Program-made: the position numbers and the translations under genes
Part shown: positions 384 to 2,472 of the stretch, one piece after another
Numbering within the stretch: the stretch's first letter is position 1
Layout: each line of letters opens with the position of its first letter
Notes under the pieces: generated by a model
Told to the model about the DNA's origin: nothing
What the model saw: only the letters and a program-made list of their open reading frames with translations
The model's database searches: none
From: a virus
Virus record (IMG/VR): IMGVR_UViG_3300027917_000184
Location: 1 to 22,313 of that record
Reading direction: 5' to 3' (one strand)
DNA length: 22,313 nucleotides

Positions 384-704
384 TTAAATCCACTCTAATT
401 TTGCGGGATGATATCTTTTTGTATTGGAAATATTTAAACCAGATGATGGAGTTGCTGGATATATGTTATGGACAATTGCTCCAGGATATTCCCCCTGCAA
501 TTGCTCTGCAAGACCTTGTTTTGAAGGAATTCCCTCAGAAACTAGTTCAAGTCTGTAAATACTTCCCATCCAAGTTATATCTGCAACATAACTCTCACCA
601 ACTTGATGTTGCTGTGGTGGTTCAGAACTATTGATATAAAGATTTCCGTTGAAATCTCCTTGTATATTTACTGACTCGGATAAAAACTCTTTGAAGGATT
701 TCAT
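384..704 (-). CDS. 106-aa conserved phage protein with capsid-targeting-like N-terminus
   Basis: I chose the ATG at 704-702, giving the N-terminus MKSFKEFLSES. The frame also runs 4 codons further up to a GTG at 716, but that start overlaps the upstream stop codon (712-710) and is less likely. The first ten residues resemble the capsid-targeting sequence of T4 internal head proteins (MKTYQEFIAE), and L-S-E followed by S fits the general cleavage rule of the T4 prohead protease gp21 (hydrophobic-x-Glu, then Ala/Gly/Ser). The rest is a small acidic/aromatic domain with a strand-rich middle (ESYVADITWMGSIYRLEL) and a C-terminus YHPAKLEWI that I recall from cyanophage hypothetical proteins. It lies 5 nt after the 438-aa gene and 3 nt before the next one. 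Inference: it may be packaged inside the head and trimmed; it could equally be a virion protein that merely shares this N-terminus. Confidence 0.8.
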   Translation of the reverse strand: MKSFKEFLSESVNIQGDFNGNLYINSSEPPQQHQVGESYVADITWMGSIYRLELVSEGIPSKQGLAEQLQGEYPGAIVHNIYPATPSSGLNISNTKRYHPAKLEWI

Positions 705-709
705 TTTAA

Positions 710-2026
710 TCACCACTTAACTTTGTTAGCCCAGTATGCTGCAGACATTTTGCCCTTAGCAATATTCTTAGCGTGTCTTGCCTTAAACCTTTCTCTTCTA
801 TTTGCATATGCTTCAGATTCTCCTTCCTTTTTAGGAGAACCCTTCACACCAACCTGCCCGAAACGAATAATATTTTCCTTTCCACCTTCACATGCTTTGA
901 CTACATGGGACTTTCCCTGTTCACCAGAACCGTGTGCTTGTGCTTTTGGTGAATTGCATTTCATTGAGGACTTATCAATCGCTTCCTGCATAAATTGTCC
1001 AAAAGTTTTCAAATCAGTTGAATTTGCAAGAGGAAGTTGAATTCCTGTAATTTTTTTCTTAGCAGCATCAGCACCTTGTTGTCCAGATTGTGCTCTCTTA
1101 ATAATTTTATCTTGCCTTAAAGCACGTCTAGTATCTGCAGAAGTATGTCCTATTTCAAAACTAATACCCTCTTCCACACCCTGCTCAACAGGTTCTTTCT
1201 TTTTAAATTTATCTTCGATTCTTTTTTGAATGTGTTGTTGAGTTGCGGCACCTGCCATTTCACCTGCTTTTTGACCGACTAATGCTCTGAGACTTCCTTG
1301 TGCTGCAGGCCCAGCAATTCTTGCAGTAACTGCAGGTGCAACAGCACGACCAGCAGCACCACCTAATAATCTACCCAGAAGCATACCAATAGCAGGCAAT
1401 GCCTCTTGAATATTTTCTTCATGCATTTCGCCACTATCAGCATAATCTGCTGCAGTATCAATATAATCTGCTGCTCTTGTAATCTTTGATTGGACCCAAG
1501 CAGGAAGATTACCTTCTCCTTTAACCTTTCCTCTCAGTCTTTTTGCTGCAGAAATAATCTTTGAAATTTCTGCTCTTGCCATTGAGTGCTCATGATCCTT
1601 TTCTTCATTTGTTGGATGTACTTGAGCAATATCAAATTTTAAACTATTTGGTGTTAATGATGAGGGCAATGAAAACATATCCCAGTAGTTTCCACCATAT
1701 TTGCATTCCGAACGTGTTTCATCTTTACCGCATTTGGGACAGTATCTTACAGGTTCTTTTTTTCCTCTTATATCTAAAGATTCATCGACACAGTTTGGGA
1801 CTTCCTTTCCACCTTTTATTTTTGTAGGTGGATTTCCAATTTTTTTACCATCCCAACATTTACTAGCGCCAACATTTTTTTTAGCTTGTGCAAGTCCTTC
1901 TCCAATATCTAATGTCTTTGGATATCCTTTTTCTCCTGGACGGGCAGCTCTTTCTCCACGCTTTCTTTTTGCATGAATATTATCCCACAAACCTTTTTTC
2001 TTCCCCTCAGTAATCATCTTCGCCAC
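710..2026 (-). CDS. 438-aa basic mosaic protein, possible processed head-internal protein
   Basis: No enzyme family is recognised. Segments in order: a basic N-terminal peptide (residues 4-30, KKKGLWDNIHAKRKRGER); a Cys-containing piece (C57 to C79); a possible metal-binding cluster C96-x2-C99 with C108; a helical segment at about 148-200 (LPAWVQSKITRAADYIDTAA); an Ala/Gly-rich hydrophobic stretch (209-244); a charged linker; then a basic C-terminal domain (about 352-438, with KACEGGKENIIRFGQ and a KARHAKNIAKGK tail). Several of these pieces recur separately in marine T4-like phages, from memory. Junctions between segments carry hydrophobic-x-Glu/(Ala,Gly) sites: ITE-G at 7/8, IQE-A at 208/209, MQE-A at 348/349, the last inside a capsid-targeting-like peptide LKTFGQFMQEA. 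The longest frame starts with GTG at 2026; the ATG at 2017 (MITEGKKKG) is an equally plausible start and gives 435 aa. It sits 8 nt after gp16, where T4 has gene 17. Role in the head is inference. Confidence 0.8.
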   Translation of the reverse strand: MAKMITEGKKKGLWDNIHAKRKRGERAARPGEKGYPKTLDIGEGLAQAKKNVGASKCWDGKKIGNPPTKIKGGKEVPNCVDESLDIRGKKEPVRYCPKCGKDETRSECKYGGNYWDMFSLPSSLTPNSLKFDIAQVHPTNEEKDHEHSMARAEISKIISAAKRLRGKVKGEGNLPAWVQSKITRAADYIDTAADYADSGEMHEENIQEALPAIGMLLGRLLGGAAGRAVAPAVTARIAGPAAQGSLRALVGQKAGEMAGAATQQHIQKRIEDKFKKKEPVEQGVEEGISFEIGHTSADTRRALRQDKIIKRAQSGQQGADAAKKKITGIQLPLANSTDLKTFGQFMQEAIDKSSMKCNSPKAQAHGSGEQGKSHVVKACEGGKENIIRFGQVGVKGSPKKEGESEAYANRRERFKARHAKNIAKGKMSAAYWANKVKW

Positions 2027-2034
2027 AGTCGAAA

Positions 2035-2472
2035 CTACTTTTGCTCTTTATTATTTAGAAAATTTGTTTTGATAGTTTTAAGAAGTTCTGATGTTGAACC
2101 AATAAAAACAGCATTATTAGTGACAGAATTTGGACCCTTTGGTGCCCTGTCCTCATCTAAATCTTTCATTTTTTTCTGAAGGTCAACTAGTTTATCAGTA
2201 ACATCGCCAATATTTTTAATCAACTGTCCAGCAACTTCATATGCCCTAGGACTATCACCTTCTCCAGCAAGTTCTAAAATTCCATTAACTGCTTCTTGTC
2301 CTTTTTCAATAAGAGAATATAAATTTGCTCTTGTATATTCATAATCTTTTTTTATATCAATTTCAATCTGAGATGGTTCTACTTTTTCTATTTGTGTGGG
2401 AGAACTCTCCACCTCAACAATAGAACTCTCTATGTTGAGTGCCTTATCAATGGAATCAAAATTCTTTGACAT
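2035..2472 (-). CDS. gp16: Terminase small subunit gp16
   Basis: The 145-residue length is close to T4 gp16 (164 aa). The order gp13-gp14-gp15-gp16 is the T4 order. The N-terminal 40 residues are acidic and low in complexity. The central part (about 42-105) is predicted helical by eye (YTRANLYSLIEKGQEAV, SPRAYEVAGQLIKNIGDV, LVDLQKKMKDL), matching the helical core that oligomerises into a ring in T4-type small terminases. The C-terminal part contains NNAVFIGSTSELLKTI, a signature I recall from cyanophage gp16. In the family, gp16 recognises DNA for packaging and stimulates the large terminase gp17. The start ATG lies 6 nt after the gp15 stop, which is followed by a second in-frame TAA (2478-2476). 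No clear Shine-Dalgarno is seen, so translation is probably coupled to gp15. Confidence 0.88.
   Translation of the reverse strand: MSKNFDSIDKALNIESSIVEVESSPTQIEKVEPSQIEIDIKKDYEYTRANLYSLIEKGQEAVNGILELAGEGDSPRAYEVAGQLIKNIGDVTDKLVDLQKKMKDLDEDRAPKGPNSVTNNAVFIGSTSELLKTIKTNFLNNKEQK

Follow-up and report, generated by a model that had tools for sequence, protein, structure and literature searches.

An internal capsid-targeting-like sequence and junction-associated protease-like sites in a candidate head polyprotein of a marine T4-like phage

Background

Does the gene that follows gp16 in a marine T4-like phage encode a set of peptides which are cut apart and packaged in the phage head? The gene lies in a 22.3-kb fragment of such a phage (G000), the whole of which is referred to here as the window. 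Its 438-aa product had been predicted, from sequence alone, to be a mosaic of unlike segments with prohead-protease-like sites at its module boundaries, and to yield several processed, co-packaged or ejected peptides. In T4, the first 10 residues of the capsid-targeting sequence (CTS) are enough for targeting, residues 4 and 7 controlling targeting and residues 8 and 10 processing (PMC9026906). As described in work on T4, each CTS cargo is one protein that is tagged at its N-terminus (PMC9026906, PMC3012670).

Results

Gene order and modules of the mosaic protein

The open reading frame of the candidate head polyprotein (710..2026, minus strand; GTG start, pI 9.7) is preceded by gp16 (2472..2035, minus strand) and is located within the gp13-gp17 neck/packaging cluster. 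The minus-strand order in the window is gp13, gp14, gp15, gp16, the mosaic, a 110-aa ORF and a phrog_1645 virion protein. Synteny with cyanophages is shown: cyanophage S-T4 has the same succession of gp16, mosaic, 110-aa gene and gp17, and S-SCSM1 shares the gene order of the window, but there three additional genes separate gp16 from the mosaic. In S-SRM01, an endonuclease VII-like gene (L323:19591-20001) separates the mosaic from the 110-aa gene. A 5.4-kb contig from another record (L082, IMGVR_UViG_3300001687_000370) is identical to the window in gp15, in the first 90 aa of the mosaic and in the 110-aa gene.

The mosaic, whose N-terminus is MAKMITEGKKKG, matched no Pfam family, and DUF5661 and DUF6321 are present in its relatives. 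No sequence relative was found in the PDB for the whole mosaic protein or for the 110-aa protein. That the segments are true separate modules is shown by PHROG matches at N-terminal, central and C-terminal positions, which come from unrelated families, and by the matches to other phages, each of which covers only part of the length; the mosaic character proposed by the original prediction therefore held.

From the N-terminus, all on the minus strand, the first unit is the basic module A (GLWDNIHAKRKRG..GYPKTL, residues 12-39, 1910..1993), defined by an HMM of relatives and matching phrog_28131 and phrog_22379. It is followed by module B, a Cys hairpin (CW-G..VPNCV, residues 57-80, 1787..1858; HMM, with a modelled beta hairpin at 61-81), by the Cys module C (RYCPKC..SECKYG.YWD, residues 94-119, 1670..1747; HMM of relatives) and by module D, a helical hairpin (..LPAWVQSKITRAADYIDTAADY.., residues 144-199, 1430..1597; HMM, model pLDDT 70-79). 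A glycine-zipper-like hydrophobic segment, ALPAIGMLLGRLLGGAAGRAVAP (residues 209-231, 1334..1402), comes next, then module E (SFEIGHTSADTRR.., residues 289-332, 1031..1162; HMM of relatives), directly ahead of which other phages carry KSFSxFMxEA. The chain ends with the basic C-terminal module F (residues 355-438, 713..964; phrog_7595), which exists as a standalone protein in many other phages.

The full-length AlphaFold model, built with 18 sequences, is of low confidence, and its use was limited to telling linkers from folded islands; with that reservation, the islands it predicts are modules B, C and D. Module F was modelled with moderate confidence (pLDDT 78.5), and comparison of this model with PDB folds gave nothing at E<=0.001, while a PDB sequence search with the module returned chance-level matches only. 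An assignment of module F to Pfam DUF6321 or DUF5754 was rejected, as it rested on sub-threshold matches in some homologues only (best E 0.0036 and 0.019).

Candidate cleavage sites in the window protein

A strict site was defined as [LIVMF]xE↓[AGS], the arrow marking the candidate bond. The protein contains six, against 1.76 expected (P=0.007, 5000 shuffles of the same protein), and none of them falls inside the conserved modules, which take up 60% of the residues. In the low-confidence full-length model, all six are in or adjoin predicted linkers (pLDDT <50).

Site 1, ITE↓G (residues 5-8, 2003..2014, minus strand, as for all six), is kept in relative G002 and also occurs near the start of the relatives' gp21 protease. 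Site 2, IGE↓G (residues 41-44, 1895..1906), is likewise kept in G002. Site 3, VDE↓S (residues 80-83, 1778..1789), is the weakest and is lost in G002, which reads VDEE. Site 4, IQE↓A (residues 206-209, 1400..1411), has the same letters in relative G001; the glycine-zipper-like segment starts exactly at this bond and is possibly a membrane-active peptide once released. Site 5, VEE↓G (residues 284-287, 1166..1177), is VLE↓G in G001. Site 6 coincides with an internal capsid-targeting-like sequence, KTFGQFMQE↓A (residues 340-349, 980..1009).

The original prediction had listed four sites, starting new segments at G8, A209, G287 and A349, all of which were confirmed at those residues, but its count was too low: IGE↓G44 and VDE↓S83 had been overlooked. 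The span it gave for the feature, 980-2014, has the MQEA codons and the ITEG codons as its exact limits, the ORF itself being 710-2026.

Cutting at all six sites is predicted to give fragments of 36, 39, 126, 78, 62 and 90 aa (4-14 kDa). Five of these six larger fragments are basic (pI 9.4-10.2, 4-10 kDa), and the 126-aa fragment has a pI of 6.1.

Sites at module junctions across related mosaics

The relatives in IMG/VR were divided into twelve recurring modules (A-L) by profile HMMs made for this analysis, with module seeds picked after the sequences had been read. Two or more module types were found in 161 proteins, arranged in 79 different orders; in most complete mosaics the terminal module is H, B or F.

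Junctions were scored for a site within 22 aa upstream of the module start, each such stretch being shuffled with its composition preserved. Enrichment is shown: of 251 non-redundant module starts, 115 have a strict site ahead of them, compared with 27.1+-4.9 in the shuffles (maximum 45 in 2000), with the P1' residue mostly 1-5 residues ahead of the module. Control motifs were enriched weakly or not at all, namely hxD[AGS] (5 vs 12.8 expected), hxK[AGS] (25 vs 28.3) and the reversed motif (43 vs 26.8), and strict sites in random ORF stretches were on a par with those in their shuffles (107 vs 104). A chance origin of the sites is ruled out by the shuffles and control motifs together. Roughly one junction in two has no strict site, and the junctions counted are related by descent. 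An apparent depletion of sites inside modules was rejected as a second line of evidence: a strict site was found in none of 336 interior windows, which is unconvincing because these are homologous copies, and when each module is represented by a single consensus the expectation is only 1.1 sites (P=0.3, not significant).

Module F illustrates how the bond persists. A Glu-Ala/Gly/Ser bond precedes it in 8 of 9 non-redundant upstream contexts despite wholly different surroundings, in the forms FMQE↓A, IIE↓A, LIGE↓A, EISE↓G, LDE↓A, LAE↓A, AFAE↓S and VEE↓A. Where module F stands alone with at least 8 residues upstream, a site is present in only 4 of 66 cases. As a check independent of the module definition, glycine-zipper-like segments were sought in the mosaic linkers; most start right after an acidic-residue bond, that of the window (NIQE↓ALPAIGMLLGRLLGG) included.

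The placement of sites at module boundaries, the main argument of the original prediction, thus proved stronger than claimed, both in the junction counts and in the position of all six window sites outside modules. The shuffle count it had proposed revealed an excess in the window protein and a much larger one across homologues. The homologue comparison, in which loss of the Glu residues would have counted as refutation, gave the opposite outcome, with the Glu-Ala/Gly/Ser bond kept at junctions while the flanks change.

Site density differs among the late proteins of three reference cyanophages: per 1000 aa it is 17-27 in gp21 and gp22, 4-8 in gp23 and 3-8 in the mosaics, and it falls to 1.4-2.8 in the remainder, tail and neck proteins included.

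The capsid-targeting-like sequence inside the mosaic and at the start of the next gene

KTFGQFMQE↓A, which closes with the MQE↓A site, matches the T4 CTS (MKTYQEFIAE↓A in IPII/IPIII, T4 record). The element fits all four key classes, with an aromatic residue at 4, Phe at 7, a hydrophobic residue at 8 and Glu at 10, and is then followed by Ala. Its position is internal, and the criterion of an N-terminal CTS is therefore not met by the 438-aa protein.

That criterion is met by the next gene (384..704, minus strand; 110 aa, phrog_1742; conserved ATG start at 704), a standalone cargo candidate which begins with MKSFKEFLSE↓S (672..704, minus strand). Across 19 aligned homologues M1, K2, F7, S9 and E10 of this tag are invariant, and the domain behind it is a homologue of module G from other mosaics (hhalign 93.7%, E 1.9e-7). 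In annotated phages, all matches to the 110-aa protein belong to Synechococcus phages, cyanophages or Prochlorococcus phages. The strongest argument for the reading, which the original prediction had overlooked, is this T4-type capsid-targeting motif, present both directly ahead of the MQE↓A bond and at the N-terminus encoded by the next gene.

Recurrence of the tag is shown in a broader set. Across 10,919 ORFs, the frequency of the CTS-plus-Glu motif per 100,000 residues is 50 in mosaic linkers, 55 in N-terminal 15-mers and 0.9 elsewhere, and modules have none. An IMG/VR scan that used the pattern only, and was blind to modules, detected 56 distinct matches in 80 loci; 25 were classed as N-terminal and 31 as internal, although 2 of the 31 seem to be N-terminal if an alternative start is used. 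Of the internal matches, 20 stand directly ahead of module E, F or H, which begins no more than 14 residues away. Module H is found in both formats, standalone with an N-terminal CTS (L400) and in mosaics behind the same motif (L353, L351, L390). A general aromatic-x-x-aromatic junction signal was considered and discarded, being barely enriched (30 vs 22); only the KTFxxF and FSxW forms are enriched.

Virion and protease evidence from related phages

For S-SCSM1, 45 virion proteins were identified by mass spectrometry (PMC9602691). Its syntenic mosaic, SSCSM1_29, is labelled 'virion protein' in the record, which does not state a location in the head interior or cleavage; scaffold gp22 is labelled likewise. 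The record carries 48 such labels against the 45 proteins of the paper, and the label is therefore no proof. SSCSM1_29 has four strict sites of its own, VSE↓GTLHKW, MTE↓GKDKKG, IEE↓SVRVPA and VSE↓GAAWTK.

The NMNAT of the same phage, SSCSM1_91, was detected in virions by mass spectrometry (PMC9602691), and its N-terminus is MKSFLQFLKEA; only one other S-SCSM1 gene has a clear N-terminal CTS match. The candidate bond is LKE↓AAESG in SSCSM1_91 and MSE↓SVNIS in SSCSM1_30, which also bears an N-terminal CTS-like tag. Virion proteomes of several cyanophages are reported to include NMNAT-like proteins, and S-CREM2 virions a SAM hydrolase, the S-CREM2 authors warning of possible carry-over during purification (PMC10665884). 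N-terminal CTS-like tags are present on a SAM-lyase domain, a DPBB lytic transglycosylase and several NMNAT/cytidyltransferases, and these tagged enzymes are possible candidates for injection. Loci of this kind are L368:3704-4408, L334:2654-3046, L292, L307, L326:38819-40045 and L331:3494-4621. Some cyanophage cytidyltransferases, those of P-HM1 and Syn1, have no CTS.

The window contains neither gp21 nor gp23, because it is a fragment. Their presence in relatives is shown, since all three of the closest-relative records tested encode gp21 (PF03420) and gp23. In two of these relatives the gp23 propeptides carry MRE↓A plus FLSE↓A or FLSE↓T.

Discussion

A head-interior polyprotein as the preferred reading

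We lean, by a modest margin, towards a polyprotein of the head interior, which would be recruited to the prohead core and processed by gp21, giving payload peptides that are mostly basic and co-packaged; there is no experimental evidence for cleavage, packaging or ejection. The modules would be concatenated payload or DNA-associated domains. The protein would enter the prohead scaffolding core at least partly via the internal KTFGQFMQE↓A, and perhaps via the N-terminal MITE↓G too. A gp21-type prohead protease would then cleave up to six hydrophobic-x-Glu↓Ala/Gly/Ser bonds, each on the C-terminal side of the Glu, releasing about six mature pieces, most of them basic and one a glycine-zipper hydrophobic peptide, and these may remain with the DNA and enter the host at infection. 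Sites at nearly every join, together with an internal CTS, suggest many small payloads made from one gene and cut apart in the virion. Several processed, co-packaged or ejected peptides are therefore supported by the sequence, while targeting by an internal tag, cleavage, co-packaging and ejection all remain inferred. Against this reading stands the fact that the CTS of T4 is N-terminal, and the function of an internal CTS is unproven.

Comparison with known systems

The closest known counterparts are the T4 internal proteins IPI, IPII and IPIII, which are CTS-targeted, gp21-processed and ejected, and with which the mosaic shares the ten-residue element K-T-aromatic-x-x-F-hydrophobic-x-E↓A, a basic product and diverse cargo behind a conserved tag. 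In T4, however, the CTS is N-terminal and each gene gives one small protein, whereas the mosaic carries its CTS internally, directly before the last of six chained modules, and has five more cut sites. The T4 ADP-ribosyltransferase Alt is a packaged, early-acting protein with a 7-residue N-terminal propeptide, comparable to the MxxMITE↓G of the mosaic, and more than one gp21 cut (PMC9026906), but it is a single enzyme trimmed at its ends and has no separable chain of modules. The prohead core proteins gp22 and gp67 of T4 are also cut several times by gp21 to give peptides; unlike the mosaic, they are scaffold, their pieces mostly leave the head and they lack shuffled conserved modules. The ejection proteins of the jumbo phages phiKZ and SPN3US resemble it in their head-interior location and gp21-like processing after Glu (PMC9026906, PMC7411985), and differ in having long N-terminal propeptides; the relevant sections of those two papers describe for them neither a KTFxxF element of CTS type nor a module chain.

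The mosaic thus falls outside the T4 internal-protein class on tag position, and it is likely that the working principle is shared. In the literature searched, which was short on subscription papers, no description was found of internal tags in a shuffled multi-module chain; on cyanophage capsid targeting it yielded only a T4 review, and on phage capsid-targeting polyproteins nothing relevant. Within that literature, the novelty lies in an internal CTS within a multi-module chain, as a variant of the T4 CTS/internal-protein cargo.

Alternative explanations

The main rival, which remains possible, is that the tags and sites are scars of in-frame fusion between once-separate CTS-tagged cargo genes, persisting as tolerated linker seams in a protein that is packaged intact or cut at the first site only. 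It is supported by module H, which exists as a separate protein with an N-terminal CTS and also in fusions that place the same motif ahead of it, and by the highly variable module order (79 architectures). Vestigial motifs should decay, however, yet the Glu bond is kept across unlike upstream sequences and also at junctions without any CTS (115 of 251 vs 27), and sites are conserved between the window protein and the relatives G001 and G002.

An unlikely alternative is that the protein is a core filler, a scaffold or core component like T4 gp22, gp67 or gp68, which would be cut to make room for DNA and not delivered. In its favour, the gp21 and gp22 of the same phages have the highest site density (17-27 per 1000 aa), and T4 core proteins are cut into fragments which mostly leave the head (PMC9026906). 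Against it, the modules are conserved, Cys-containing or basic, present also beyond the T4-like group and freely swapped, so a payload fits better than a scaffold; moreover, site density in the mosaics is moderate (3-8 per 1000 aa), and the syntenic S-SCSM1 protein is among the listed virion proteins.

That this is an ordinary multi-domain neck- or tail-associated protein whose acidic linkers merely resemble gp21 sites is very unlikely: its position in the gp13-gp17 cluster and the chance matches raised by Glu-rich linkers speak for it, but composition-preserving linker shuffles yield only a quarter of the observed sites, CTS-like motifs are almost missing from other late proteins, and tail and neck proteins carry 1.4-2.8 sites per 1000 aa.

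Possible payload polyproteins in marine T4-like phages

A bolder form of the polyprotein reading is that marine T4-like phages use modular payload polyproteins, built of swappable cargo units of which several stand behind an internal CTS and a gp21 site, with one gene loading and releasing many effectors, a glycine-zipper membrane peptide included, and with the linker motif [FY]S[ND]WR as a second class of targeting tag. The balance of the evidence tips slightly against so broad a claim. Were it so, T4's pattern of a single tag at a single N-terminus for a single cargo would be extended to a multi-cargo polyprotein system in phages that are among the most abundant in the sea, and a large group of mosaic proteins in cyanophages, so far without annotation, would be accounted for. 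Furthermore, the CTS motif plus the Glu bond would provide a sequence rule predicting which proteins a phage injects, and the mosaics would offer natural designs for putting several proteins into T4-type heads.

Additional observations

The second linker motif, in full [FY]S[ND]WR(E/D)(E/D)(L/F), has 57 occurrences in mosaic linkers, whereas the 1.28 million other residues contain it only once, in SSCSM1_92, which is labelled virion protein. Its aromatic-x-x-Trp spacing is CTS-like and it often stands ahead of a site; examples are found in L323:17713-19539, L125:1708-2835 and L120:2630-4135. CTS-like sequences were also seen at the extreme C-terminus, at the end of a 267-aa ORF (L401) and in SSCSM1_93 (L326:41626-41832), with the sequences KTFKQFMSEAKGV and KKKRTFKEFLEYIE; these possibly represent a C-terminal version of the targeting signal. 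Finally, module J of some mosaics (L089:2381-4471, L092:3017-5059 and also L345) is split by an intein-like insert of ~280 aa starting CVPENSTKALTRDSWKNVNDLNIGDEIL.
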